Below, piece after piece: positions 4,474-20,269 of a stretch of DNA of 61,453 bases. Numbering within the stretch: position 1 is the first letter of the stretch; the number at the start of each line of letters is the position of its first letter. Source of the stretch: Flammeovirgaceae bacterium. GTDB lineage: Bacteria > Bacteroidota > Bacteroidia > Cytophagales > Cyclobacteriaceae. The notes beneath the pieces are model-generated. The model was given only the letters and a program-made list of their open reading frames with translations. It did no database searches and had not been told where the DNA came from. Made by a program: the position numbers and the translations under genes. The stretch spans positions 1 to 61,453 of the forward strand of contig JAJTGQ010000041.1 of NCBI GenBank assembly GCA_021299455.1, written 5' to 3'.

Positions 4474-5054
4474 TTTTTCGGAATTTCAGAATTAGAAACC
4501 GTCACGTAAGGCGACTTATAGGTCTTCATGAATTCCGCATAAGAATTTTGGCCTTTCTTGTGGTGATTCCCGCCAAAGAAAACCAGATACGGATGAAACT
4601 CTTCCGGCTTCCGATAGCCTGGTATCGGATATACAGCGGTAAAATCCTCTTCTAAAAAAGTAACCGTGGGATAGCTTAGTTGGTTGTTTAGTAAAGCTGC
4701 GGCCAATTGGTGAGTTCCCTTGTTTCCATAGGGAACAAATTTGAATGTGGTTCCATTAAAAACTACATCCGCTGTTTGCTCGGCATCAAATTTCACCGGA
4801 TAGAACTTCTCGTTCAACAGTTTCGCCACGGTAGGATCTGCAAACGTGTTTTTGTCCATGACTTTGCACCACCCGCACCAATCGGTATACACATCAATGA
4901 ATATTTTCCTTTTTTCGGTCTTTGTACGTTCCACCGCTTGTTCAAAGGTCATCCATTTTACTGGCGATGCTCCGTTTAATTCCTGAGCCTGAACGGACTC
5001 AGGGGTCGAATAAATTGCTAGAATAAGTAAGTAGACAATTATTTTGTTGTTCAT
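4470..5054 (-). CDS. Exported thioredoxin-fold protein
   Basis: I place the start at 5054 (MNNKIIVYLLILAIYS), giving 194 residues with a signal peptide ending near 'VQAQ'. Starts further upstream lack a signal peptide, and the best -7 candidate (TAAATTTG, 5089-5082) lies downstream of them. The mature part has the thioredoxin-like redox motif DWCGWCKVMDKNTF and 'NEKFYPVKFDAEQ', as in periplasmic DsbD-gamma or DUF255-like proteins. A role in periplasmic thiol chemistry is likely; the partner is unknown. The tail 'PEEFHPYLVFFGGNHHKKG' is typical of the Bacteroidota family. Confidence 0.8.
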   Translation of the reverse strand: MNNKIIVYLLILAIYSTPESVQAQELNGASPVKWMTFEQAVERTKTEKRKIFIDVYTDWCGWCKVMDKNTFADPTVAKLLNEKFYPVKFDAEQTADVVFNGTTFKFVPYGNKGTHQLAAALLNNQLSYPTVTFLEEDFTAVYPIPGYRKPEEFHPYLVFFGGNHHKKGQNSYAEFMKTYKSPYVTVSNSEIPKN

Positions 5055-5081
5055 GCTGTAATTATTAGGCCTTCCATCCGA

Positions 5082-5089
5082 CAAATTTA
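5082..5089 (-). promoter_or_regulatory. Candidate -7 element for the thioredoxin-fold gene
   Basis: The minus strand reads TAAATTTG, an exact TAnnTTTG match, 28 bp before the chosen ATG at 5054. ATG stands where the -33 TTG is expected. It supports the shorter start of the downstream gene. Confidence 0.4.
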
Positions 5090-5173
5090 AGCAGAAAGAA
5101 GTTCGGATCATTGATAATATTTTAAGGGCTTTTGTAACTAGTTGCAATCCAAAAAGTATTCCATTTACGAAGT

Positions 5174-5386
5174 ATGAAAATCACTAGAAAAGATATTTTG
5201 ACTGTTTTTGGCGTTTTGATGGCCTTTCTGGTTGCTGCAACCCTGCACCTGTCAGAAAGCAGCGCAATCCCCACAGGAATGACCTCTGCTACTTCTGAAC
5301 TTGCCTTTCAAGTAAAGAAAACGAGCCAAAAATTTAAAATTTTAGTACAGCTAAAAAGTCTTTTCAGCCACAGCCATCACCGGTAG
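5174..5386 (+). CDS. Small membrane or exported hypothetical protein
   Basis: This 70-residue frame starts MKITRKDILTVFGVLMAFLVAATLHL, a basic N-terminus followed by one hydrophobic segment (about residues 9-26), then a polar tail rich in Ser, Lys and His. It could be a single-pass membrane peptide or a short exported protein. I recognise no family. Its 3' end overlaps the convergent YkgJ-type gene by 10 bases. Divergent placement from the thioredoxin gene leaves room for a promoter. It may not be real. Confidence 0.4.
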   Translation: MKITRKDILTVFGVLMAFLVAATLHLSESSAIPTGMTSATSELAFQVKKTSQKFKILVQLKSLFSHSHHR

Positions 5387-5946
5387 GCATAGTAGTGCAA
5401 AACCGTTTCGATCGCTTTTCGCATGGCACTATTTATCGGGTAAAACTGGTTTGTTAACTCAAAGTCAATAGAGTGAAGTTGCATATAATACGCACTCATG
5501 ACTGGCATTTCTTCACCCGCTTCAATCTTGCTTTCGGCCAGCTCATAGTTCTCCTTCTGCTCGGTTTTGATAATTTGACAGGTAATCAATTCCTTTTTTG
5601 AATACTTGTTGGTGCGAGCGGAATAGCCGAACAACCTACATATCAACCCTCGATGATGGTATTGCGAGCAAAGGCCTGCACCCGCCTGAGTAGGGTTAAA
5701 AATCAAGCAAATCGAAGAATCGGTAGTTTCCAGCTTCTCGAGCCACTCCTCTGCAAGTTTATTCTGGTAAAGAAAATAGGCAAAGGGAAGAAACTCAAGT
5801 ATCGTTGCTTCAATGTCCGGTTTGGTACAACACTTGCCGCATCCAAATTTGCAGTGCAACCCGGACCAAGATTGAAACGTGGCAATTTCCTTGTCCAGTT
5901 TTTCAAACACCGACTCCACTAAGTTTACTTTCTCTTCCAGGGACAT
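5377..5946 (-). CDS. YkgJ-type cysteine cluster protein
   Basis: The protein carries the cysteine pattern of the YkgJ family (putative zinc- or iron-sulfur-binding): 'CKFGCGKCCTKPDIEAT' near the N-terminus, then C-L-I-F-N at mid-protein, 'GLCSQYHHRGLICRLFG' and a later Cys. I start it at the Met in 'MSLEEKVNLVES' (5946, 189 residues). A start 27 codons earlier would run into the 5' end of the divergent glycosyltransferase. The family is often proposed to bind an Fe-S cluster, but no reaction is established. Confidence 0.75.
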   Translation of the reverse strand: MSLEEKVNLVESVFEKLDKEIATFQSWSGLHCKFGCGKCCTKPDIEATILEFLPFAYFLYQNKLAEEWLEKLETTDSSICLIFNPTQAGAGLCSQYHHRGLICRLFGYSARTNKYSKKELITCQIIKTEQKENYELAESKIEAGEEMPVMSAYYMQLHSIDFELTNQFYPINSAMRKAIETVLHYYAYR

Positions 5947-6029
5947 CCCGCAAATGTAATCCAATGGGCTTATTGTCTTCGTATAGTTGACAGTAAATCC
6001 ATTTGCTAACTTGAGCCGTGAAAGCAAAT

Positions 6030-6743
6030 ATGTCTAACGGAATATCTATCATCATTCCCGCTGTGGATGAGGCCTCGATAATAGCTAGAGCCGTTTTACA
6101 GTTTACCCAACATCCTCACAGCTCATTTTTAGAAGTGATTGTGGTGGATGGAGGAAGCAGAGATCAAACAAAAGAAGTCGCCTTAGAAGCGGGTGCGAAA
6201 GTGATAGAAAGCCCAAAAAGAAACCGAGCTGCGCAAATGAATCTGGGAGCCTGGTCAGCCAAATTTCCTCTTTTGTATTTCGTTCATGCCGATGTTCAAG
6301 TACCAAAAAGCTTTTGTGATGATATTTTTCTTTCTATCAATAACGGCTTTGAGTCGGGTTGCTATAGATCAGACTTTGAAAGCTACCCTGGCTTGATGCG
6401 CTTGAATGCATACATGACTCGTTTTAAGCTACTGACTTTTCGTGGGGGAGATCAAACCTTATTCATTACAAAAAGCGCCTTCGACAAACTAAACGGATTT
6501 GATGAATATTATACGATCATGGAAGACTATGATTTTATTGCGCGGCTTTGGAAAGCAAAAATTCCCTTTGCATTGATTCAAAAAGATGTTGTGATCTCTG
6601 TTAGGAAGTATGAAAAAAACTCATGGTTGCGAGTGCAAATTGCCAATGGCATTGCTATGTTTTTGTTTAAGCAAAAGAAAAGCCCTGAAGTGATTAAAAG
6701 ATACTATCGAAAACTCTTGAACTATCGAGAAGAAAACTACTAG
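6030..6743 (+). CDS. Family 2 glycosyltransferase (TIGR04283-like)
   Basis: The protein begins 'MSNGISIIIPAVDEASIIARA', the beta strand and helix of a GT-A nucleotide-sugar fold. It continues with 'VVDGGSRDQT', a D-x-D equivalent 'HADVQVP' at about residue 90, and 'RGGDQTLFITKSAFDKLNGF'. The pattern fits the TIGR04283 subgroup of GT2, which transfers a sugar to an unknown, often membrane-associated acceptor. I start at 6030 since this Met is the one directly before the first strand. At 237 residues it is full length, with no transmembrane segment seen. Confidence 0.85.
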   Translation: MSNGISIIIPAVDEASIIARAVLQFTQHPHSSFLEVIVVDGGSRDQTKEVALEAGAKVIESPKRNRAAQMNLGAWSAKFPLLYFVHADVQVPKSFCDDIFLSINNGFESGCYRSDFESYPGLMRLNAYMTRFKLLTFRGGDQTLFITKSAFDKLNGFDEYYTIMEDYDFIARLWKAKIPFALIQKDVVISVRKYEKNSWLRVQIANGIAMFLFKQKKSPEVIKRYYRKLLNYREENY

Positions 6744-9074: not shown

Positions 9075-9899
9075 GTGGTACAAGATATTGACATAGCAGA
9101 CTTAAAAAAGATCACTGAGCTTGTTCAGGGAAAATACGGGTATGATTTCCGGAATTATGCGATGTCCTCCTTTAAGAGACGAATGCTGCGTATTCTGGAG
9201 TTGAAGAACCTGACTATAGAATCTCTGCTCAAAAAGTTGAGTGACCAGCCCTCCTTTATCGAAGAATTTTTGGATGAACTGACCGTCAACGTAACCGAGA
9301 TGTTCCGTGATCCGGGGTTTTGGCGAATCATGCGTGACGAAATCATTCCGGGAATTCTGTTAAACCACAAAACCTTTAAGATCTGGCACGCTGGCTGCTC
9401 ATCGGGCGAGGAAGTGCTTTCGATGGCGATCCTGCTCAAAGAAATGGGCATTCATCAAGACGTTCAACTATTTGCAAGTGACCTGGATGTGAACATTCTG
9501 GAAAAGGCAAAAGCAGCTACCTACCCCATAAAAAACATGGAGTTGAATGAAAAGAATTACATACGCTACGAGGGTAAAAAAAGCTTGAAGGAATATTACA
9601 AGGAAGAAAACGGGAAAGCAGTTTTCGACAAAGAACTGATGCAAAACGTGTCTTTTCGGAAACACGATTTGGTGAAAGGGGAGATCTTTAACAAGTTCGA
9701 TTTGGTTTTGTGCCGAAACGTGATGATTTATTTTAATCAGTCACTACAAAACGAAGTACTAAAAAAATTCCACGAGAGTTTATTCAAATACGGATACCTG
9801 GCAATTGGCTCCAAAGAGTCATTGATCTGGTGCGATGTGGCAAGCAAATTTTTAGTGGTAAACAACGAGGAAAAAGTTTACAAGAAGATAAAGGATTAG
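9075..9899 (+). CDS. cheR: CheR-type protein-glutamate methyltransferase
   Basis: CheR enzymes use S-adenosylmethionine to methylate glutamates on chemoreceptors. This 274-residue protein has the N-terminal helical CheR domain ('ITELVQGKYGYDFRNYAMSS', 'LLKKLSDQPSFIEEFLDEL', 'VTEMFRDPGFWRIMR'). The SAM fold follows with 'HAGCSSGEEVLSMAILL', 'LFASDLDVNILEKA' and 'VLCRNVMIYFN'. The start is a GTG at 9075, as an in-frame stop lies 21 bp upstream and the next Met would cut the helical domain. There is no receptor, CheA or CheW gene nearby. It is the first gene of a seven-gene run on the same strand. Confidence 0.92.
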   Translation: MVQDIDIADLKKITELVQGKYGYDFRNYAMSSFKRRMLRILELKNLTIESLLKKLSDQPSFIEEFLDELTVNVTEMFRDPGFWRIMRDEIIPGILLNHKTFKIWHAGCSSGEEVLSMAILLKEMGIHQDVQLFASDLDVNILEKAKAATYPIKNMELNEKNYIRYEGKKSLKEYYKEENGKAVFDKELMQNVSFRKHDLVKGEIFNKFDLVLCRNVMIYFNQSLQNEVLKKFHESLFKYGYLAIGSKESLIWCDVASKFLVVNNEEKVYKKIKD

Positions 9900-9912
9900 G
9901 GAAACTGCTGCC

Positions 9913-10509
9913 ATGGACAAGTATAACTTAAATAATAGCTACAAGGCAGTGGTGATTGGAGGGTCAGCAGGGAGTTTTCAGGGAATTGTGAAAATTCTGG
10001 CTCAGCTTCCGAAAACTTTTCCTCTGCCCATTATCATGTGTATGCACAGATTGAAACATGTGCGCAATGGATTTGTCGAGGCCTTATCAATAAAAAGTGT
10101 GGTACAAGTAGTAGAACCGGTAGACAAAGAGTCAATCAAAAAGGGAGTGGTATACCTTGCCCCCTCCAACTACCATATGTCGGTAGAGCTTGGCAATCAC
10201 TTTTCGATGTCTACCGAGGAAATGGTAAATAATTCACGACCCGCCATCGACATCACACTAGGAACAGCTGCCTATGTATATCGGGACAAACTCATTGGAG
10301 TTTTACTTTCGGGCGCCAACAGAGACGGTGGACTAGGAATGAAACACATCAAGGACAAAGGCGGATTGACAATTGTACAAGAACCTACGGAATGCATGAT
10401 TGATACGATGCCCAAGGCCGCACTTGCACTTACTAAAATCGATCACACATTAAAAATTGATGAGATCGTTGAATTTTTGAAAGAACTAGATAAGCACTAC
10501 ACTAAATAA
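9913..10509 (+). CDS. cheB: CheB-type methylesterase without receiver domain
   Basis: The 198-residue protein is the catalytic CheB domain alone. The triad is visible: Ser18 in 'VVIGGSAGSFQG', His45 in 'IIMCMHRLKH' and Asp138 in 'LLSGANRDGGLGMKHI'. It should hydrolyse glutamyl methyl esters or deamidate glutamines on a receptor-like partner. Canonical CheB has an N-terminal response regulator domain controlled by CheA; none is present here, so activity must be controlled otherwise or be constant. It lies 13 bp after cheR and 1 bp before the GAF gene, implying coupled translation. Confidence 0.92.
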   Translation: MDKYNLNNSYKAVVIGGSAGSFQGIVKILAQLPKTFPLPIIMCMHRLKHVRNGFVEALSIKSVVQVVEPVDKESIKKGVVYLAPSNYHMSVELGNHFSMSTEEMVNNSRPAIDITLGTAAYVYRDKLIGVLLSGANRDGGLGMKHIKDKGGLTIVQEPTECMIDTMPKAALALTKIDHTLKIDEIVEFLKELDKHYTK

Positions 10510-10510
10510 T

Positions 10511-11284
10511 ATGGAAAGGCTCCTTCAAACGTTAAAAGATCCAGGCAAATTAAGCTTGTTGCTTTCTGCACTTTTTTATGTTGGTTTGGTTTCATCTGCC
10601 TTTGTGTTGGTGACACTTCCTCATGATCTTGTTACCAAAGGCGGAATGACCTCTAATGGGTTGGAAACACTCGTCTATACAAAATTATTTATCACGCTTG
10701 TTGTCACTTTCGGGCTCGGAATTTTCGCCATCAATACCACCCATAAGGCAAAAAAGGAAATTGTTGTCTTTAAGGAGAAGAAGACAGAAACCTCGGCAAC
10801 CTCAAAGGGAGAAACCACCGAGCAATCATCGTTTGATACACTAGCATTCACCAAAGCCCTCAAAGGTGCCACTTCTGGTCAACTGTATCAGATAGGAATC
10901 AATCAGATTTGCAAGGCACTCAATGCGGGACAAGGTGCATTTTATCTTGTAAAAGAAAGGGAAGGCAAACGCGTTGTAGAAATGAAAAGTGCGTTTGCTG
11001 TACCGCTTGAAGGCGACCCAGTTGTCTATGAATTTGGTGAAGGCTTGGTAGGGCAATGCGCGGCAACTGGAAAAAGTATGCTTCTTGACGAGCTGCCCGA
11101 AGGTTACACCCATGCGATCGTTAGCGGACTGGGAATGGCCGCTCCAAAATACATTCTGATTATCCCAATAAAAAAGGAAGAAGTGGTTGCGGCTGTTTTG
11201 GAAATAGCAACATTTTCAAACCTGACCGGCAATAGCCAAAAAGAGGCAGAACAAATGGCTGCACTTTTAGCAGAACAGATTTAA
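10511..11284 (+). CDS. Two-pass membrane protein with cytoplasmic GAF domain
   Basis: Residues about 15-38 and 58-78 form two hydrophobic segments. A charged linker rich in Lys, Thr and Glu follows, then a GAF domain at about 115-257 ('GQGAFYLVKEREGKRVVEMK', 'FGEGLVGQCAATGKSM', 'PKYILIIPIKKEEVVAAVLE'). It resembles the GAF domain of the next gene closely, including the EGLVG motif and SG-L-G, so the two probably arose by duplication. No catalytic domain is present, which suggests a sensor or adaptor at the inner membrane. Ligand unknown. Confidence 0.85.
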   Translation: MERLLQTLKDPGKLSLLLSALFYVGLVSSAFVLVTLPHDLVTKGGMTSNGLETLVYTKLFITLVVTFGLGIFAINTTHKAKKEIVVFKEKKTETSATSKGETTEQSSFDTLAFTKALKGATSGQLYQIGINQICKALNAGQGAFYLVKEREGKRVVEMKSAFAVPLEGDPVVYEFGEGLVGQCAATGKSMLLDELPEGYTHAIVSGLGMAAPKYILIIPIKKEEVVAAVLEIATFSNLTGNSQKEAEQMAALLAEQI

Positions 11285-11309
11285 CGTACTACTAAACCGT
11301 AAAAAGGTT

Positions 11310-14300
11310 ATGTTTAAAAACATAAAAATTAGCACAAAGATCACCATCCTCATTGTCGCCATTTCGTTGGTGAGTGTGTTGGCGATCTCCCTGTTTACTT
11401 ACCATATCAACGTAAAAAATTCGGAAGAAAAGCTTCACACTAATTTGTCAGTCATTGCCGACAATAAATCAGCTCAACTTAGCCACTATTTCGCCCACAT
11501 AGCCAGCACGGTTAATTTTCTTCAGAATTCCCCCGAAATAAAAAACTTACTCAGTTCTTCGCCAGATTCACTTCGATCTACTCTTACAAAGGCAAAGGAA
11601 ACCTATGGATTTGAAGAGTTGTTTGTTTCTAATAGTAGTGGAACGATCCTAGTCTCTGCAAACACGCAAAAAGGAAACTTCCCCGATCCCGATGGCTCTT
11701 TTTTCTCAAATGCAGCAAGCAACATCTACTACAGCTCTGTTAAAAAAGATACCGTGAACAAATCCTCGGATTCATACATGATGTTTGCAGGAGCACCTCT
11801 TCACGGGAATCTGTTAATTTTTAAGATTGATTTAAATCCGCTATTTAAGTCATTACAAGATACAAACGGTCTTGGGGCTACTGGTGAATCTTTTATTGGA
11901 TACAAAGATTTGGTGACCCGGAAAATCATCCTAGCCAGCCCATTGAGAAACGACCCCGGAGCCTTTTTTAAATTTTATTCTGAGAATGAAAACGAAGTGA
12001 AAGAGATTAGCCTGGCGCTGGAAGGTAAAAATGGCTTTGCCACCGGTCGTGACTACCGCCATCAGGAAGTGTATGTTGCTTATCGCAAAATTGAAAATTC
12101 GCCTTGGGCTCTTGTTGTAAAAATAGACACCAACGAAATCAATGGGCAAGGGGGAGCGCTTGCTAATATCTACTGGATGGGTGGATTGGTTATTGTGCTA
12201 CTGGCAGCCGCCATTTCAGTTCTATTTGCACGCTCACTTACAATGCCACTTATTTCAATGCGCGACACCCTAGATTTGGTTTCGCAAGGTGTTCTTCCCG
12301 ATAAAATTGAAGCGGCTAGCAGCGATGAGTTTGGCCAAATGGCCACTAAGGTGGATGGCCTTGTCCAGACATTAAAAGGGAGTGCCCAATTTGCACGCTT
12401 GGTTGGAGAAGGACAATTTAATGCCGCCTATCAGCCTGCCAGTGAAAATGATACGCTCGGCCTTTCGCTATTAAACATGCGAGAGAATTTGATTGAAAAT
12501 GAAAGAAAAGATAACGAGCGCAACTGGATTGTGAGAGGGGTAGCGGAGGTAGCGGAGATCTTAAGGATGCACGATACGTTGGATGGTCTGGGTGACGATG
12601 TTATTCAGTTCATCATCGAGAAGATTGGAGCCGTACAGGGTGCTTTCTATGTTGTCAGTGACGAAAAAAAAGAGAAAAGCATTGAAATTCGCGCGAGCTT
12701 TGCCTACAATCGAAAAAAGTATCTAAAAAAATCTTTCCGTTTTGCAGAAGGTTTAGTCGGAGAAGCGGCTGCTGAGAAAGATTACATTCTCCGCACCGAA
12801 ATACCTAGTGAATACGTAACGCTGACATCTGGTATTCTCGGTGATCAAAAACCCAACTGCATTCTTATTGTACCATTGATTACCAATGAGGAGGTGTACG
12901 GAGTTGTGGAATTTGCAGGCCTTAAGAAGTTTGATTCCTCACAAGTAAAATTTGTTCAAGAACTAAGTTTGATATTGGCCCGAACCATCTTCAATATAAA
13001 AGTCAATGAGCGTACAAGACGGCTCTTGAGTGAATCGCAAGCATTGAGCAGCGAGTTGACGGAAAAACAAGAAGTACTCCGCCAAAATGCAGAGGAAATG
13101 CGGGCCACGCAAGAAGAATTACAAAGGTCGAATATCAAGCTCGAAGAACAAATTGAAGAAGTAAATCGCACTCAAAATCGAATGCAGTTACTTCTCGAAA
13201 ATGCCTCGGAAGTAATTACCATCTACGAAGAAGATGGGCGAATTCGCTACATATCACCTTCCGTTGAAACCATTTTAGGATATTCTCAAAAAGAACTACA
13301 AGGGCAAAGTGATTTGAATCGTGTTCACCCCGATAGTCTGGAGGTAGCAAAAGGTTTGTTTGATCAATTGCGTGAAAATCCTGATGAAAAATTAACGGTA
13401 CAACTTGAATACAAGACAAAAGACGGCAAGTATATTTGGTTGGAAGCTACAGGTACCAATTTTATGGCGAATCCGGCTATCCATGGTTTTATTCTCAACT
13501 CCCGCGATATCACAGAGCGCAGGTTAGCCGAACAAGAGCAACGTATGCGCAGTAAGATGCAAGCATTGTCAGAAAATTCGCTTGATATCATTACCCGCCT
13601 GGAGAATGATGCTATTTCCTACATCAACCCAACGATTGAAAATTATACCGGTAAATCGCCTGAACGATTCATTAACAAAAAGATAATGGAAGCAGACTTA
13701 GAGTCTGGGATTTTGGAGCAGTGGCTCTCTATTTTTGAACAAGTAAATTCAACAAATGACAAGATTTCAACCGAAATGGATTTTCCATCTGAAATGGGAA
13801 AACGAATAATGCAAGTAAACGCCATACCCGAGTATGATGACCTTGAAAACATCGAGTCAGTTCTCTTGGTGTCGCATGATATTACCGATCGAAAAGAAAT
13901 CGAGCTTGAGATTCAAAATAAAAACAAGAAAATCAACGACTCTATCAATTATGCAAAACGTATACAGAACGCAATTTTGCCAAATACCAGATTAGTAAAT
14001 AGGACATTGCCTGATTCTTTTGTACTCTATAAACCAAGAGATGTTGTAAGTGGAGACTTCCCGTGGTTTGTTCAGATTAAAGATGATTTGTTTATAGCTG
14101 CTGTAGATTGTACAGGTCATGGCGTTCCGGGAGCCCTCCTTTCTCTGATTGGCTATTTCCTGCTGAACGATATCGTGCGAAGCAGGAAAATCACTGATCC
14201 TGGAAAGATATTAGATCTGTTGGATGAAGGGGTAACTCAAACACTCCGCCAAGACCAGGAAGATTCCGCAACAAAAGATGGAATGGATATCGCACTTTGT

Positions 14301-14684
14301 CGCATCAATACAGAGACTAGGGTGGTTGAGTATGCTGGTGCTCACCGTCCCTTGTACATCATGAAGGGTGGTGTGATGGATGAAATAAAGGGAAATAAAT
14401 TCCCTATTGGTGGCGGTATCTATAAAAATCAAACGAACTTTACGACTACCAAATTAGAACTTGGCAAGGGTGATTCTTTCTATTTTTGCTCCGATGGATT
14501 CCCTGACCAATTTGGCGGGCCGGAATCACGTAAATTCGGTCCAAAAAAGACAAGGGATATCATTGAAAGGGTTCACCGTGACCCAATGAGCGAAGCGGCC
14601 AAAATCTTTGATGCAGAATGGGAGGCCTGGAAAGGAGATCAAAAGCAAACGGATGACGTGTTGCTAATTGGAATTAAATTGTAG
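11310..14684 (+). CDS. Cache-HAMP-GAF-PAS-PAS-SpoIIE sensor phosphatase (SiaA-like)
   Basis: Domain order in this 1124-residue protein: TM1 (about 11-31), periplasmic Cache-like sensor (33-284), TM2 (285-308), HAMP (310-375), GAF (425-560), coiled coil (565-625), two PAS domains (625-745 and 750-853), short linker helix 'INDSINYAKRIQNAILP', and a PP2C SpoIIE phosphatase (875-1124). Metal-binding aspartates lie in 'VVSGDFPWF', 'VDCTGHGVPGALLS', 'GMDIALCRI' and 'TDDVLLIGI'; Pro in GDFPWF is unusual (Tyr is common). In Pseudomonas, SiaA dephosphorylates SiaC. The adjacent siaB and siaC genes support the same role here, with extra sensory domains. Confidence 0.9.
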   Translation: MFKNIKISTKITILIVAISLVSVLAISLFTYHINVKNSEEKLHTNLSVIADNKSAQLSHYFAHIASTVNFLQNSPEIKNLLSSSPDSLRSTLTKAKETYGFEELFVSNSSGTILVSANTQKGNFPDPDGSFFSNAASNIYYSSVKKDTVNKSSDSYMMFAGAPLHGNLLIFKIDLNPLFKSLQDTNGLGATGESFIGYKDLVTRKIILASPLRNDPGAFFKFYSENENEVKEISLALEGKNGFATGRDYRHQEVYVAYRKIENSPWALVVKIDTNEINGQGGALANIYWMGGLVIVLLAAAISVLFARSLTMPLISMRDTLDLVSQGVLPDKIEAASSDEFGQMATKVDGLVQTLKGSAQFARLVGEGQFNAAYQPASENDTLGLSLLNMRENLIENERKDNERNWIVRGVAEVAEILRMHDTLDGLGDDVIQFIIEKIGAVQGAFYVVSDEKKEKSIEIRASFAYNRKKYLKKSFRFAEGLVGEAAAEKDYILRTEIPSEYVTLTSGILGDQKPNCILIVPLITNEEVYGVVEFAGLKKFDSSQVKFVQELSLILARTIFNIKVNERTRRLLSESQALSSELTEKQEVLRQNAEEMRATQEELQRSNIKLEEQIEEVNRTQNRMQLLLENASEVITIYEEDGRIRYISPSVETILGYSQKELQGQSDLNRVHPDSLEVAKGLFDQLRENPDEKLTVQLEYKTKDGKYIWLEATGTNFMANPAIHGFILNSRDITERRLAEQEQRMRSKMQALSENSLDIITRLENDAISYINPTIENYTGKSPERFINKKIMEADLESGILEQWLSIFEQVNSTNDKISTEMDFPSEMGKRIMQVNAIPEYDDLENIESVLLVSHDITDRKEIELEIQNKNKKINDSINYAKRIQNAILPNTRLVNRTLPDSFVLYKPRDVVSGDFPWFVQIKDDLFIAAVDCTGHGVPGALLSLIGYFLLNDIVRSRKITDPGKILDLLDEGVTQTLRQDQEDSATKDGMDIALCRINTETRVVEYAGAHRPLYIMKGGVMDEIKGNKFPIGGGIYKNQTNFTTTKLELGKGDSFYFCSDGFPDQFGGPESRKFGPKKTRDIIERVHRDPMSEAAKIFDAEWEAWKGDQKQTDDVLLIGIKL

Positions 14685-14728
14685 TATTTTTAGATTAAAC
14701 GATAATTTCGAATCCAAACCCAAATACG

Positions 14729-15283
14729 ATGAATTTTATCTATGACTTGCACCGGACAATGATGTCCCAAAAGCTAATCTTGGTGTATGATGGTGATTTC
14801 ACCCAGGAAACAACCAAGTCCATATTGGCCATGGCAGAGCGCAATCTTGATTCTTCAGGAGAAGATTCAGGAATAAAACGCAAAGTGTTCAACGTAATGG
14901 TTGAGGCTCTTCAAAACATCGTTAAACATAGCAGTGAACAGGGTACGCAAGCTGGATCGCTGGTCAGTAGAAGCGCGATTTTCATGATCAGCAAAGACGA
15001 CAAAAGGTACTGCGTATTAACTGGCAATCCTATTCTAAAAGGCAAGGCAGTGCTGTTGACCAGCAACCTCAACGAACTCAATAGCAAAGACAAAGACGGC
15101 CTCAAAGAGATGTATAAAGAAATCATCAAGAATACTCAGATATCCGAAAAAGGTGGTGCGGGCTTAGGGTTTGTTGACATGGCAAGAAAGTCGGGAGAAA
15201 AATTGGAGTTCACCTTTAGCGATATGGACGCAGAATATGACTTCTTCTGCCTAAAAGTTAATATCTCACGTGAAAAAGAATAA
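14729..15283 (+). CDS. siaB: SiaB family protein kinase
   Basis: The 184-residue protein has a GHKL-type ATP-binding fold: an N-box in 'VFNVMVEALQNIVKHS' (Glu59, Asn63) and a glycine-rich 'GGAGLGFVDMARKSG' loop near residues 145-160. It lacks a histidine-kinase dimerisation domain, as expected for the SiaB / DUF6272 group. In Pseudomonas aeruginosa SiaB phosphorylates SiaC and opposes the SiaA phosphatase. Here it lies 44 bp after the SpoIIE gene and 27 bp before siaC, which matches that partner-switch arrangement. Cytoplasmic. Confidence 0.9.
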   Translation: MNFIYDLHRTMMSQKLILVYDGDFTQETTKSILAMAERNLDSSGEDSGIKRKVFNVMVEALQNIVKHSSEQGTQAGSLVSRSAIFMISKDDKRYCVLTGNPILKGKAVLLTSNLNELNSKDKDGLKEMYKEIIKNTQISEKGGAGLGFVDMARKSGEKLEFTFSDMDAEYDFFCLKVNISREKE

Positions 15284-15310
15284 TTAAAAAAATTAAAAAA
15301 CGAACCAATC

Positions 15311-15673
15311 ATGGAAATCTTAAATCTAAAAGGGACAGAAGATACACCCACTATCTTGTTGGATAAGAAAAACGGCATTTTCGAAATTAGTGGACGTTCG
15401 CTGCCAGAGGACTCAGCGGAGTTCTACACGCCAGTCATTGAGTGGATCAATGCCTACGCATCAGACCCTAATTCAAGCACAGAATTCGCAATAAAACTGG
15501 AATACTTTAACACGGCTTCATCAAAATTAATTTTGGATGTACTTTCGGCACTCGAAGAGGTAAAGGGCATCAAAGTTTTTTGGTATTTCCACGATGATGA
15601 CGAAGATATGGAAGAGGCAGGCCAAGAGTTCTCGGAATTGGTTGAAATTCCCTTTGAGTTTAAAACATACTAA
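15311..15673 (+). CDS. siaC: SiaC family regulatory phosphoprotein
   Basis: The 120-residue protein fits the SiaC (DUF1987) family in length and motifs: 'TPTILLDKKNGIFEISGRSLPEDS', shown here as separate motifs TPTILLD and ISGRSLPEDS, and 'KLEYFNTASSKLIL'. Thr68 in Y-F-N-T sits at the same residue number as the threonine reported as the phosphosite of Pseudomonas SiaC. In that system unphosphorylated SiaC binds and activates the diguanylate cyclase SiaD. No GGDEF gene is present here, so the target differs or lies elsewhere. The stop codon is inside a small hairpin (15671-15688). Confidence 0.92.
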   Translation: MEILNLKGTEDTPTILLDKKNGIFEISGRSLPEDSAEFYTPVIEWINAYASDPNSSTEFAIKLEYFNTASSKLILDVLSALEEVKGIKVFWYFHDDDEDMEEAGQEFSELVEIPFEFKTY

Positions 15674-15694
15674 ACCACAATCGGTTTATTTTTT
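15671..15694 (+). terminator. Weak terminator or attenuator between siaC and the ABC gene
   Basis: A perfect 6-bp stem (15671-15676 with 15683-15688, loop of six) is followed by six T. The siaC stop codon forms part of the left arm. The stem is AT-rich and probably only partly efficient, which could lower expression of the transporter relative to the sia genes. Confidence 0.4.
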
Positions 15695-15737
15695 ACGTTC
15701 CTTTGAGTAATCAGAAAGGAAAAATATTTTTTAAGGA

Positions 15738-18700
15738 ATGAGTGAAGAAATACTAAGGGCGCTTACCCAACTCTTTGCAATCATCACCAAACAAGACGGT
15801 GGTGTGACTGAAAACGAGCGTCAATTTGTAATTACTTTTTTTAGAACTGAACTCGACCAAGACTCGATTAAAGAGTACCTTGAGCTATATGACAATATCT
15901 CCGGATACAGCAAGCAAGGCTCAGGAGAGGACGAAAAAAACAAGCTCACTTCCGTTAGGGACTCCGTAAAAACCCTGGGGATCTGTAAGAAAATTAACAA
16001 GACCCTTACCCAAAAACAGAAGGTGGTGGTGTTGATTAAGCTGTTAGAACTTATTGGCTCTGACAAAAACTTTACACCTCAACGCATCGAAATTATCAAC
16101 ACCGTTTCGACTGTATTTAACATCGATCAGAAAGAATACAACCTCATTGAAAAATTCATTACAGCAGAACAAATTGAGGAGCTGAATTTTTCTGATATCC
16201 TTATTTTAAATGGCGGCACAGAGAAATCCGCAGAACTTCAAAAGCATACACACGGCCACATTGCGGGCAACCTGATTTTTATGCGGGTAAGCAGTGTGGA
16301 AATGTATTTCACAAAATACCTCGGTGAAGAACTAAATATACTCAATGGATTTATCATGCAGTCCAATCGGGTGTATTTGTTTTCGCATGGAAGCACCATT
16401 AAAACACAAGCAGGGGACGCGCTTTACTATAGTGATCTGGTGGCGCACTTCAATGAAGAAATTAAAACCACCAAGCTTTCTTTTAATGCAAACGTAGAAG
16501 AATTTAAGTTCCCCAACGGAGCCATTGGACTACGGGACGTATTGATTGCAGAGGGGCCTGGCAAGTTGATCGGCATCATGGGTGCTAGTGGAGCTGGAAA
16601 AACAACGCTTCTACTAACGCTCGCTGGCTTGGAAAAACCTTCCAAAGGTGAAATTTTAATAAACGGATTTGATATCCATAATGAGAAAGACAAGATCCAA
16701 GGTGTAATCGGATTTGTCTCGCAAGATGATCTGCTCATCGAAGAATTAACAGTCTACCAGAATCTGTATTACAATGCCAAACTATGCTTTGCAACTTTCA
16801 CGGAGGCGCAACTGCATGAACGAGTGATGGAAACCCTCGAAAATCTGGGACTCGACCAGCGCAAAGACCTGACAGTAGGCAGTGTGCTCGATAAAAAAAT
16901 AAGCGGTGGACAACGCAAACGCCTCAATATTGCATTGGAACTTATTCGAGAACCAGCGATACTTTTCTTGGACGAGCCAACTTCGGGGCTGTCATCTCGC
17001 GACTCGGAAAATGTTATAGATCTGTTGAAAGAACTTTCGCTGAAAGGGAAGCTAATTTTTGTCGTTATACACCAGCCATCTTCAGATATCTATAAGATGT
17101 TCGACAAGATGATCATTATGGATACCGGAGGCTATCCGGCCTATTATGGCGCCCCCGTTGAAGCGGTCAGTTACTTTAAGAAAGCGACCCATCAGGTGGA
17201 TAGCAATCGCGGTCAATGCGAAACCTGTGGAAATGTAAACCCGGAACAGATCTTTAATATAATCGAGGCCAAAGTGGTGGATGAGTATGGTCAGCCCACC
17301 AACAAGCGCAAGGTTACTCCGCCCCAATGGCATGATAAGTACAAAGAACGATTCAAAATCAATCGTATTGAGGATGTAAAAGAAGAGCCACCCAGCACGC
17401 TCAATATCCCAAGTCGATTTAAACAAACCGCCATTTTCGCTACCCGCGATTTTCTATCAAAGCTTAGCAATAAACAATACCTGTTAATTAATTTACTGGA
17501 GGCGCCTTTGCTGGCAGCAATTCTGGCGTTTATCATTAAGTACAAAAGTGCACCGGGTGGCAAAGAGTACATATTTCGCTTCAACGATAATTTCCCGGCC
17601 TTCCTTCTGATGTCAATTATTGTAGCCCTCTTTATGGGCCTGACGGTCAGTGCCGAAGAAATTATCCGCGACCGAAAGATCTTGAAACGAGAATCGTTCT
17701 TAAATCTGAGTTGGAATAGTTATTTGATTTCTAAACTGGCCATTCTTTTCCTTCTATCGGCTATACAAACCTTAACATTCGTAATTATTGGAAATGTAAT
17801 TCTGGAAATCCACGGGATGACTTTTGCGTTTTGGTTTGTGTTGTTCACCACATCCTGTTTGGCTAACGTTTTGGGTTTAAATATTTCATCTGCTTTCAAC
17901 TCTGCGGTCACGGTTTATGTGATGATTCCGCTTTTGCTTATTCCTCAAATGATTTTGAGCGGACTACTTTTCAACTTTGACAAATTGAATGGAATCATTG
18001 CCACCAAGGGCAAAGTACCAGTGGTGGCCGATTTAATGACGTCTCGATGGGCCTACGAAGCCATGGCTACCTATCAATTCAAGAATAATGATTATGAAGC
18101 CACTCTATTTAAGTATGAAAAAGAAGAGGCAAAAGCAGATTTCAAAGCAGCCTATTTGGCCGATGAGTTAAAAAAACGGAATCTGTTTGTCTTGGAGAAC
18201 TTCGAATCAAAAAATGATTCCCTCAAGAAATTGGTTACCATGAACCTTTCTATCATCGATGACAATTTGAAGAACGAACCGTTCCGCATAGGCTTCGAAA
18301 AAATCGATCTCTCTAACGCTCTTGACCCTAAAAATTATTCAAAGGTAGTGGGTGCCTTATTGAACAACTATTTTGAGGAGTACCGAAAATACTACCAGAA
18401 AATCTATAATGAAAATGTTTCTTTGATCGAAAAGAGAATGGCATTCGATGAGAAAAATGGTGTGAATATTAACCATGAAAAGAATAAGTACTACAATGAG
18501 AGTTTGGCTGACCTGGTCAAAAACATCACGACCAAAGAACGATTACTGGAATACAAAGGAAAATTGATTCAACAAATTAATCCCATCTTTCAGGAAGCAA
18601 ATCCATCGAACGTGATGGATTACAGAACAGCCTTTTTCCTCCCCCAAAAGAATTTGGCGGGAATTAACGTGGATACCTATTGGTTTAATTTGCTGGTGAT

Positions 18701-18821
18701 CTGGATGATGGCCCTGTTATTATATATAGCTTTGTACTTTGAATGGCTCAGAAGCCTGATTGATTTATTTGGGAAAGTGAATATCCCAAATAAAGTCACG
18801 ATTCCCTTCAAAAGGAAGTAG
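15738..18821 (+). CDS. ABCG-type ABC transporter with TerB-like N-terminal domain
   Basis: This 1027-residue half-transporter has an N-terminal helical domain (1-145) resembling TerB ('LTQLFAIITKQDGGVTENER'). A beta-rich segment follows (about 150-240). The ATPase has Walker A GASGAGKTT near residue 280, signature ISGGQRKRL near 388, Walker B AILFLDEPTSGLSS near 407 and an H-loop 'VVIHQPSSD'. A C-x2-C pair (QCETCG) lies near 494. A membrane domain begins near 580 and carries a roughly 190-residue soluble, charged insert before the last helix. The fold order (ATPase before membrane domain) is that of ABCG exporters. Substrate unknown. The operon position suggests control by the Sia proteins, which is inference. 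Confidence 0.88.
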   Translation: MSEEILRALTQLFAIITKQDGGVTENERQFVITFFRTELDQDSIKEYLELYDNISGYSKQGSGEDEKNKLTSVRDSVKTLGICKKINKTLTQKQKVVVLIKLLELIGSDKNFTPQRIEIINTVSTVFNIDQKEYNLIEKFITAEQIEELNFSDILILNGGTEKSAELQKHTHGHIAGNLIFMRVSSVEMYFTKYLGEELNILNGFIMQSNRVYLFSHGSTIKTQAGDALYYSDLVAHFNEEIKTTKLSFNANVEEFKFPNGAIGLRDVLIAEGPGKLIGIMGASGAGKTTLLLTLAGLEKPSKGEILINGFDIHNEKDKIQGVIGFVSQDDLLIEELTVYQNLYYNAKLCFATFTEAQLHERVMETLENLGLDQRKDLTVGSVLDKKISGGQRKRLNIALELIREPAILFLDEPTSGLSSRDSENVIDLLKELSLKGKLIFVVIHQPSSDIYKMFDKMIIMDTGGYPAYYGAPVEAVSYFKKATHQVDSNRGQCETCGNVNPEQIFNIIEAKVVDEYGQPTNKRKVTPPQWHDKYKERFKINRIEDVKEEPPSTLNIPSRFKQTAIFATRDFLSKLSNKQYLLINLLEAPLLAAILAFIIKYKSAPGGKEYIFRFNDNFPAFLLMSIIVALFMGLTVSAEEIIRDRKILKRESFLNLSWNSYLISKLAILFLLSAIQTLTFVIIGNVILEIHGMTFAFWFVLFTTSCLANVLGLNISSAFNSAVTVYVMIPLLLIPQMILSGLLFNFDKLNGIIATKGKVPVVADLMTSRWAYEAMATYQFKNNDYEATLFKYEKEEAKADFKAAYLADELKKRNLFVLENFESKNDSLKKLVTMNLSIIDDNLKNEPFRIGFEKIDLSNALDPKNYSKVVGALLNNYFEEYRKYYQKIYNENVSLIEKRMAFDEKNGVNINHEKNKYYNESLADLVKNITTKERLLEYKGKLIQQINPIFQEANPSNVMDYRTAFFLPQKNLAGINVDTYWFNLLVIWMMALLLYIALYFEWLRSLIDLFGKVNIPNKVTIPFKRK

Positions 18822-18823
18822 AT

Positions 18824-18853
18824 TTGGTAACGTAGGCTGAATTCTTAATTTTG
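18824..18853 (+). promoter_or_regulatory. Bacteroidota promoter TTG-N19-TAATTTTG
   Basis: TTG at 18824-18826, a spacer of exactly 19 bp, and TAATTTTG at 18846-18853 match the Bacteroidota sigma-A consensus in full. The ATG of the next gene is 20 bp downstream, so the lipoprotein has its own promoter just past the ABC transporter gene. Confidence 0.7.
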
Positions 18854-18873: not shown

Positions 18874-19767
18874 ATGAGAGTATTTTTGATTGCACTACTC
18901 GCCCTTTTTTTGACGGCTTGTGGCTCGGGCAAAAAGCCTGATGAACAAGCATTTCTAAACAGTCTGGATTCTGCCAAGAGTGGGCCAACAATAGATGAAG
19001 AGGTCATAAACAGCATCCTTCAACAGATACCAAGCCCGCTGGAGATTTCGGTTCTTTTAAAGGAATCGGGAACAAAGTACAATGCGGGCATGCTAAACAC
19101 CCCTGATAATCTCTCAAAATATAACAGCAACTACAAAAAGGCGCTCAATTTGGGTGTTTTTGGTACTGATTTGGGATATACCAACATTTACGAACAGAAT
19201 CAGGACGGCATTAAATACCTTTCATCGATCAAATCTCTGGCTGACGGTCTGAATATTGGGCAATTTTTTGATATTGAGACCATAGGAAGATTGGCGACAA
19301 ACAGCAAAAATCTTGATTCTTTGTTGTTAATCACAACACAAAATTTTAATAGCATCAACCATTATTTGCAAACTCAGAGCCGTGCTAACCTAAGTGTTCT
19401 ACTGCTTATTGGGGGATGGGTGGAGGCGATGCAGATTACCTGCCAGGTAGCTGCCAAAGACCTCAAGAATAAAGAGCTTCAAGAGAAAATAGGCGAACAG
19501 AAAATAATATTAGAACAAATCGTGCTTCTGCTTTCGTTCTATAAAGATGATGCAAATATGGCATCTTTATTGAATGACATGAACGAATTGAAGGTTGCCT
19601 TTGACAAAATCAATATTACCTATACGTACAAGGAGTCTACGATGGAAATCATTGATGGTGTTGCAGTTATCAAAGACAACAGTTCTACCACGATCAATGT
19701 CACCAACGAGGATATTGAGGCGATTAGAAACTTGACGAATTTGATCAGAAATAAAATAATTGGCTAA
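18874..19767 (+). CDS. Lipoprotein of unknown function
   Basis: The 297-residue protein starts MRVFLIALLALFLTACG, a clear lipoprotein signal with Cys16. The mature part is largely helical and polar with one moderately hydrophobic stretch ('ANLSVLLLIGGWVEAMQI'). I recognise no named domain. It follows the TerB-ABC gene by 52 bp but has its own full promoter, so it may be expressed with the cluster or independently. An envelope partner of the transporter is possible but unsupported. Confidence 0.75.
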   Translation: MRVFLIALLALFLTACGSGKKPDEQAFLNSLDSAKSGPTIDEEVINSILQQIPSPLEISVLLKESGTKYNAGMLNTPDNLSKYNSNYKKALNLGVFGTDLGYTNIYEQNQDGIKYLSSIKSLADGLNIGQFFDIETIGRLATNSKNLDSLLLITTQNFNSINHYLQTQSRANLSVLLLIGGWVEAMQITCQVAAKDLKNKELQEKIGEQKIILEQIVLLLSFYKDDANMASLLNDMNELKVAFDKINITYTYKESTMEIIDGVAVIKDNSSTTINVTNEDIEAIRNLTNLIRNKIIG

Positions 19768-20219: not shown

Positions 20220-20241
20220 AACAGAATTTCATTAGAAAATG

Positions 20242-20269
20242 AACCTTGCTTACGGCAGGGTTTTTTTTT
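20242..20269 (+). terminator. Rho-independent terminator closing the signalling cluster
   Basis: An 8-bp stem (20242-20249 with 20255-20262, one G-U pair, 5-base loop) runs into a tract of nine T. It lies 22 bp past the stop of the secreted protein gene. Confidence 0.85.

Follow-up and report, generated by a model that had tools for sequence, protein, structure and literature searches.

A Sia-type partner switch with CheR/CheB genes as a probable regulator of a TerB-ABCG transporter in Bacteroidia

In contig JAJTGQ010000041.1 of a Flammeovirgaceae bacterium (GCA_021299455.1), a block of nine genes combines a Sia-type partner switch with CheR, CheB and an ATP-binding cassette (ABC) transporter of the ABCG type. 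The analysed stretch, positions 1 to 61,453 of this contig, is called the window hereafter. We consider it probable that the block encodes partner-switch control of an ABC exporter, in which the SiaC protein would dock on the TerB domain of the transporter according to its phosphorylation state, and CheR and CheB would adapt the sensor.

Conservation of the gene block

Seven open reading frames (ORFs) occupy positions 9075-18821, all on the forward strand and separated by gaps of 13, 1, 25, 44, 27 and 64 bp. The sequence-only reading of this DNA had described seven codirectional genes with gaps of 1-64 bp, and both their positions and their domains were confirmed. The unit is larger than it had supposed, since two more genes, for a lipoprotein (ds1) and a small secreted protein (ds2), follow the transporter after gaps of 52 and 20 bp and belong to the block (Table 1).

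A scan of named genomes with a SiaC alignment gave 552 confirmed loci, of which the best 80 were fetched. The same nine genes recur in the same order in 44 of these 80 loci, so the arrangement is not a matter of chance. The remaining loci have the first seven genes only (6), codirectional SiaB-SiaC-ABCG genes (10), SiaBC and ABCG genes convergent with each other (6) or other layouts (14), several of the codirectional and other loci being cut by contig ends. One of the 44 (L082) has a 100% identical SiaC and probably represents the window's own species. The expectation that the gene order is kept in related genomes thus holds, and the combination is not a singular case but a widespread, though patchy, theme of Bacteroidia. 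Carriers of the full block include Chryseotalea, Ohtaekwangia, Parachryseolinea, Marivirga, Fulvivirga, Flexithrix, Flammeovirga, Cesiribacter, Nafulsella and Bernardetiaceae. In the window's own family, four of the nine genomes in a sample of the phylum have it (the window and L032-L034), and the other five match neither SiaC nor TerB-ABCG, a patchy distribution. In L113, L118 and L121, from the Cesiribacter and Nafulsella group, a second PP2C/SiaC/SiaB set with SiaC and SiaB reversed lies just downstream of the block.

A TerB-ABCG gene is present in 67 of the 80 named loci, and two more (L135 and L144) have a TerB piece near a contig end. Where siaC and the transporter gene are codirectional (61 loci), the median gap between them is 95 bp. 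L144, a single contig of a metagenome-assembled genome (MAG), is a reduced form: positions 4841-6589 contain a cytidine deaminase gene, SiaC with Thr68 kept and a transporter cut by the contig end. CheR, CheB, GAF, SiaA and SiaB are gone, and the same kind of cytidine deaminase gene stands in front.

The association is also seen at the level of the class. A profile of the transporter N-terminus matched 223 of 395 class genomes, from which 25 weak matches (E 1e-9 to 1e-3) were set apart and 198 below 1e-18 were counted; SiaC matched 213 genomes of the same draw. Both occur in 189 genomes, the transporter only in 9, SiaC only in 24 and neither in 173 (Fisher p 5e-72), these counts, like the others reported here, being uncorrected for kinship. 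Forty transporter loci were drawn from high-scoring class hits, a choice biased to sequences resembling the profile; SiaC was found in the fetched stretch of 16 of them, in 15 cases within 1.5 kb. The link between SiaBC and TerB-ABCG recurs in the class in two arrangements, codirectional and convergent (tail-to-tail), which fall on different parts of the transporter tree.

In one family, f12, the place beside the lipoprotein-transporter pair is taken by other genes. In 11 of 21 transporter loci, these encode a STAS protein, a HATPase resembling RsbW, a receiver-SpoIIE phosphatase and two proteins of kinase type. In f12 locus L167, Pfam detects HATPase_c_2, HATPase_c/HisKA and Response_reg-SpoIIE, and the STAS gene, cut by the end of the stretch, was assigned by reading and not by Pfam. 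None of the three f12 genomes that carry the transporter in the class sample gives a SiaC match. We read f12 as a case of a different, unrelated partner switch beside the same transporter type.

Components and possible outputs of the switch

The SiaA-like protein has GAF_2, PAS (two stretches) and SpoIIE matches over the Pfam cut-offs, and dCache (E 3e-10) and HAMP (E 0.009) matches under them; the NCBIfam SiaA model aligns with the C-terminal part of this phosphatase at E 1e-63, also under its cut-off. The family model SiaB_fam_kinase is exceeded by a wide margin (180 against 85 bits), whereas the equivalog cut-offs are reached neither for SiaA (215.5 against 700 bits) nor for SiaB (80.6 against 225) or SiaC (89.7 against 150). 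The three window proteins are therefore classified, by their sequences, as family members and not as strict equivalogs of the Pseudomonas proteins. The nearest solved proteins are nevertheless from Pseudomonas: 6kko/6k4f for SiaC (E 4e-16), 6kko_A for SiaB (E 3e-11) and 6k4e for the phosphatase domain of SiaA (E 2e-43).

The residues on which the switch would depend are preserved. Thr68 of SiaC aligns with that of 6kko/6k4f and is conserved in 81 of 81 sequences (the window and the 80 loci). Glu59 of SiaB, conserved in 78 of 78, aligns with a Glu of 6kko_A and is most likely the counterpart of Glu61, the catalytic residue predicted in the accessible text of PMC7647112. The metal-binding Asp residues of the PP2C domain, aligned to 6k4e, are conserved in 59 or 60 of 60 phosphatases. 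Separately, a SiaC relative with Ser in place of Thr at position 68 (LEYFNSS) was found in L036 (5830-6195).

In Pseudomonas, SiaC attaches to the helical stalk of SiaD when unphosphorylated, and phosphorylation of Thr68 blocks this binding, according to the parts of PMC7647112 and PMC8457831 available to us, where the authors also suggest that the SiaC protein family commonly modulates adjacent proteins. SiaD had been reported as absent here, and this extends to the whole genome: its 176 contigs (96.5% complete) give no GGDEF match, although 8 of 14 control genomes do, and the Pfam scan of the operon proteins detects no GGDEF domain. Action of SiaC through an unlinked diguanylate cyclase was accordingly rejected for this genome, which has one SiaC, within the limit set by its completeness of 96.5%. 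The output gene rules out membership of SiaABCD, not its working principle. The same genome contains a second, canonical partner switch, with SpoIIE phosphatase, STAS and RsbW-like HATPase genes by Pfam (L325, 3181-6025) and no adjoining TerB-ABCG in the stretch examined.

Elsewhere in the phylum SiaC, found in 22 of 395 genomes, has other neighbours. In 32 further loci from this sample, TerB-ABCG is nearby in 4 (L032-L035). The downstream neighbour was scanned in 16 of the other 28, and 11 of the 16 encode signalling enzymes: histidine kinases in 4 (L038, L047, L056, L057), class III cyclases in 3 (L051, L054, L059), SpoIIE proteins in 2 (L046, L062) and GGDEF proteins in 2 (L040, L041). An AAA protein lies one small ORF further on in 2 others (L043, L058). 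Since SiaC precedes such varied possible outputs, SiaBC looks, from gene order, like a plug-in switch with exchangeable outputs in different clades. Such neighbours fit the suggestion that the family acts on adjacent proteins, and they also show the transporter to be one of several outputs. A large SiaC network outside the operon is present in some class genomes, which carry up to 11 SiaC matches (e.g., G397, G438, G415 and G613). In the Crocinitomix loci L151, L154, L155 and L160, which have no transporter, the gene after SiaB and SiaC is P-loop kinase-like (GITGGIGAGK) and possibly encodes another SiaC partner.

The TerB domain as candidate docking site

The transporter carries ABC_tran (residues 274-416) before ABC2_membrane (563-751) in one chain, which makes it ABCG-type by Pfam; its best NCBIfam match, the pigment-precursor permease subfamily, is under cut-off. 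At the N-terminus, TerB is detected at 26.8 bits against a cut-off of 24.4. A structure model of the N-terminal 281 residues (mean predicted local distance difference test 83) is all-helical at 1-142 and all-beta at 154-230. Foldseek matched this model with the TerB-like chain 2h5n (E 0.13, probability 1.00), and its top matches are FHA domains (best 5yyz, E 0.01, probability up to 1.00), none being under E 0.001. The MEK1 chain 5yyx came up in a profile search (E 0.022, residues 179-225), Pfam has no FHA match in the transporter, and a PDB search with the single N-terminus produced a chance match only (E 0.18). The model suggests that a second, FHA-like domain is probably present.

The phosphothreonine-binding signature of FHA domains is Arg/Ser/His/Asn. 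In the FHA-like part, compared by eye on alignments, Asn203 is invariant or nearly so and no conserved Gly-Arg or His was seen. Direct reading of phosphorylated Thr68 of SiaC by this domain, considered since the fold search gave FHA, is not favoured because the canonical signature was not seen by eye and because the domain is retained less in codirectional transporters (67%) than in paralogues (79%).

These retention values come from positions conserved in 18 convergent SiaC-linked transporters, one of this type (L236) being held out. Over TerB (residues 56-142), 75% of the positions are retained in codirectional transporters (50-85, n=63), 95% in unlinked ones (69-100, n=24, all from genomes with a SiaC match) and 92% in L236. 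The value falls to 37% in f12 (n=21) and to 40% in the extra paralogues (31-54), a set of five proteins from three genomes whose range just overlaps that of the codirectional transporters. The ATPase domain shows no such fall in the paralogues (codirectional 91, unlinked 96, L236 93, paralogues 93, f12 81%), and in the FHA-like part the remaining values are 92% for unlinked transporters, 88% for L236 and 54% for f12. The result was similar with positions defined on all linked transporters. Since the paralogues differ in TerB while their ATPase and membrane regions are kept, the comparison points to TerB as a SiaC-specific part and candidate docking site. By-eye comparison with the SiaC-binding residues given in the accessible part of PMC8457831 found no convincing match to a SiaD-type stalk motif in TerB-ABCG.

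In a tree of 97 transporters, for which 28 of the 63 codirectional ones were used, all 28 lie in one branch of 31 rows. Its sister group contains the extra paralogues of the window's family together with L236, which is convergent and SiaC-linked, and f12 stands apart. Two of the paralogues are in the window's own genome (L163, 6266-10316; L162, 7457-10552), and one of these is preceded by a ds1-type lipoprotein gene and lies downstream of genes reading like RND (resistance-nodulation-division) efflux components.

CheR, CheB and a putative methylation motif

CheR and CheB very probably serve a non-chemotactic sensor, because the genome gives no match to the signalling domain of methyl-accepting chemotaxis proteins (MCP, PF00015), which 7 of 14 control genomes do match, and its single CheR is that of the block. 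The methylation consensus of MCPs is E-E-x-x-A-S/T. A sequence resembling it, LRQNAEEMRATQEEL, was found in the coiled coil of the phosphatase. Of the 51 phosphatases from named loci with both CheR and CheB, 46 have the block NAEEMxAT, 42 have the extended form EE-x-x-ATQEE and 48 have the less strict E[EQ]xxA[ST]. This last pattern occurs in none of the 51 membrane GAF proteins and in 13 of 16 additional GAF proteins whose genes precede CheR.

At the DNA level, EE-x-x-ATQEE was searched in 60 genomes of the family as a pattern that requires a hydrophobic residue at the third position. CheR was counted as standalone, in a sorting by hand, if its match was over the cut-off and its open frame was shorter than 420 aa. 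The pattern was found in 26 genomes, namely in 26 of 35 with standalone CheR and in 0 of 25 without it, kinship again being uncorrected. In the window's own genome it occurs at two places, the phosphatase and a 485-aa membrane GAF coiled-coil protein encoded at an unlinked site (L324, 4753-6210), which carries EEEMRQNMEELVATQEEM and is similar to the additional GAF gene found before CheR in many relatives. These two proteins are, judging from the motif, most likely the methylation targets. The proposal that CheR and CheB modify a receptor-like sensor is thus supported as regards a non-chemotactic role, and the likeliest partners become the phosphatase and the unlinked GAF protein.

Coordinates and end of the operon

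The features of the block are given in Table 1. The terminator-like hairpin after ds2 is the sole intergenic site on the forward strand in the terminator scan; as the scan total (15) is not above chance (shuffled mean 12.2), the call rests on its place and shape. No terminator-like site was detected by the scan in the 64-bp gap between siaC and the transporter gene. Promoter patterns of the Sigma-70 and Bacteroidota types are at chance level in the window, and one match of the latter type lies at 18823-18853, between the transporter gene and ds1.

Table 1. Features of the nine-gene block, in window coordinates
Feature	Position	Strand	Evidence
CheR-type protein-glutamate O-methyltransferase, 274 aa	9075..9899	+	Pfam CheR E 4e-44 and CheR_N 2e-6, both over cut-off
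CheB methylesterase domain without receiver, 198 aa	9913..10509	+	Pfam CheB_methylest E 3e-48, sole family match
Membrane-anchored GAF protein, 257 aa	10511..11284	+	GAF_2 E 3e-10, over cut-off; N-terminal hydrophobic segments by reading the sequence
SiaA-like sensor phosphatase, dCache-HAMP-GAF-coiled coil-PAS-PAS-PP2C, 1124 aa	11310..14684	+	Pfam, NCBIfam, PDB 6k4e
EEMRATQEE codons, coiled coil between GAF and PAS of the phosphatase	13092..13118	+	Resembles the MCP methylation consensus
SiaB-family protein kinase, 184 aa	14729..15283	+	Pfam DUF6272; NCBIfam SiaB_fam_kinase; PDB 6kko_A
SiaC phosphoprotein, 120 aa, Thr68 within LEYFNTAS	15311..15673	+	Pfam SiaC E 4e-39, over cut-off; PDB 6kko/6k4f
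TerB - FHA-like - ABCG half-transporter, 1027 aa	15738..18821	+	Pfam TerB, ABC_tran and ABC2_membrane over cut-off
Lipoprotein ds1, 297 aa, TerB-ABCG companion	18874..19767	+	Lipobox-like start by reading; adjoins the transporter in relatives
Small secreted protein ds2, 143 aa	19788..20219	+	Kept after ds1 in relatives
Terminator-like hairpin followed by T run, end of block	20241..20263	+	Terminator scan

In most of the 40 class-sample layouts, ds1 accompanies the transporter with or without SiaC; a ds1-type lipoprotein also adjoins one of the two unlinked TerB-ABCG paralogues of the genome and convergent ABCG genes. Among solved structures nothing usable matched the structure model of ds1 (best E 0.59), and the sequence match of ds1 is at chance level (E 0.07). 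In two Bacteroidales loci, a weak homologue of ds2 separates ABCG from ds1. Three ds1 copies follow the transporter in L136 (13640-16864), and L127 (13615-15921) has two ds2 copies.

Proposed mechanism and alternatives

We suggest that the Cache/GAF/PAS sensor phosphatase and the kinase SiaB would together set the phosphorylation of SiaC at Thr68, as their conserved residues imply. By analogy with SiaC-SiaD, and given the co-conservation of SiaC and transporter, dephosphorylated SiaC would dock on the N-terminal TerB domain of the ABCG protein and switch or stabilise it, and phosphorylation would release SiaC from TerB. The lipoprotein ds1 and the secreted ds2 may assist the transporter outside. 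CheR and CheB would reversibly methylate glutamates in the coiled coil of the phosphatase, adapting the sensor, and the unlinked GAF protein is probably methylated too. If this is true, an adapting signal pathway ends in transport and not in movement, cyclic diguanylate or transcription. On a wider scale, these loci may represent a class of phospho-switch-gated exporters of Bacteroidia, built of TerB-FHA-like-ABCG and a lipoprotein, whose TerB socket takes either SiaBC or a STAS/RsbW switch, SiaBC being a plug-in switch with exchangeable outputs and the phosphatase of Cytophagales being tuned by CheR/CheB methylation with no chemoreceptor, a generalisation that we find possible and somewhat doubtful.

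Several observations weigh against control of the transporter by SiaC. TerB-ABCG is absent nearby in 11 of the 80 named loci and absent from the fetched stretch in 28 of the 32 phylum loci, so SiaC has other partners elsewhere; SiaBC without a transporter in L123 and L132 (Cytophagales) and in the Crocinitomix loci are the clear exceptions to the linkage. Three of the 16 scanned neighbours are of housekeeping type (a glycosidase in L049, a primase in L055 and a methyltransferase in L039). From the side of the transporter, 24 of the 40 class loci have no SiaC and 10 of the 21 f12 loci no such switch set in the fetched stretch, some of these stretches ending at contig edges. The missing kinship correction and the small paralogue set also count here. 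As to methylation, the motif is a coiled-coil sequence, NAEEMxAT is absent or altered in 5 of the 51 phosphatases (L130, L134, L137, L139 and L143), and 9 of the 35 genomes with standalone CheR do not have the EE-x-x-ATQEE pattern.

The loci without a transporter, together with the up to 11 SiaC matches per genome mentioned above, would fit an operon with a shared task in which SiaC acts on an unlinked target, such as a regulator, and the transporter is only co-expressed. We hold this to be rather unlikely for the window, whose genome has one SiaC and no GGDEF match. The association persists where the genes are convergent, hence not on one transcript, and a different switch occupies that place in f12. 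Elsewhere SiaC precedes signalling enzymes of other kinds, as though the adjacent gene encoded the output, TerB has diverged in paralogues without SiaC neighbours, and L144 retains SiaC beside the transporter despite having lost five upstream genes. The last locus, which keeps SiaC without SiaA and SiaB, could also suggest that SiaC serves the transporter as a structural subunit or chaperone, with a minor role for phosphorylation, as MlaB does for MlaF in the accessible text of PMC7367683. That role is quite improbable in our judgement, since L144 is only one MAG contig, Thr68 is invariant in all 81 sequences, and a kinase and a phosphatase whose catalytic residues are intact lie beside SiaC in at least 50 of the 80 loci (those with the first seven genes in order).

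Regarding the sensor, CheR and CheB might belong to a separate sensory pathway and be only incidentally placed in the operon. CheR domains that lie within long open frames, probably of fused kinases, are indeed common in the same bacterial family; against this, no MCP match was found, the only CheR of the genome is that of the block, the CheR-CheB head is present in 50 of the 80 loci, and both genes recur with SiaBC in other families (L237, L253, L257). We regard a separate pathway as improbable and prefer adaptation of the phosphatase by CheR/CheB within a switch that acts on the transporter.

Comparison with known systems

The literature search, whose coverage left out most subscription journals, returned no report of a SiaBC-ABC or partner-switch-ABCG link in Bacteroidota, and a diguanylate cyclase is the sole SiaC output named in the searchable literature, although proteins of the SiaC family are widespread. 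The operon names a different output, in a genome without a GGDEF match. As in SiaABCD of Pseudomonas aeruginosa, a PP2C phosphatase is followed by the SiaB kinase and then by SiaC with its Thr68. The operon differs from that system in having TerB-ABCG after siaC and no SiaD, with no GGDEF match in the genome, in its additional GAF, PAS, CheR and CheB parts and in the unmet equivalog cut-offs.

The usual known output of RsbU/RsbV/RsbW-type partner switches is a sigma factor. The block follows the same kinase-phosphatase-STAS logic, yet the neighbour here is a transporter, and in 11 of the 21 f12 loci a switch of precisely that type adjoins TerB-ABCG. That another family has an unrelated switch next to this kind of transporter amounts to a natural experiment, through which the idea becomes directly testable. 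Compared with chemotaxis proteins, CheB consists of the methylesterase domain alone, with no N-terminal receiver, and the genome is without an MCP signalling-domain match for a receptor; the methylation motif suggests a transfer of CheR/CheB adaptation to a phosphatase.

Among ABC transporters, MlaB-MlaF is similar in that a small STAS-type protein acts on the transporter, as SiaC would here. The phosphomimetic substitution T52E of MlaB, a STAS protein with this Thr at the interface, weakens binding to the ABC ATPase MlaF, and no evidence of MlaB phosphorylation is reported in the available portion of the same paper (PMC7367683). Unlike MlaB-MlaF, the block encodes a kinase and a phosphatase beside SiaC, and its transporter is ABCG-type with TerB and FHA-like domains. 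It also supplies the piece missing from the MlaFB paper, a STAS-type protein that lies by an ABC transporter and has a kinase and a phosphatase of its own. PknF-Rv1747 likewise combines, in a two-gene operon, a putative ABC exporter with a Ser/Thr kinase by which the exporter is modulated (PMC3908365, as far as its text was accessible), and Rv1747 has FHA domains (PMC5549992, with the same restriction). In our block, by contrast, the kinase is the SiaB of a partner switch acting via SiaC, and the FHA-like domain has no evident phosphothreonine-binding signature.

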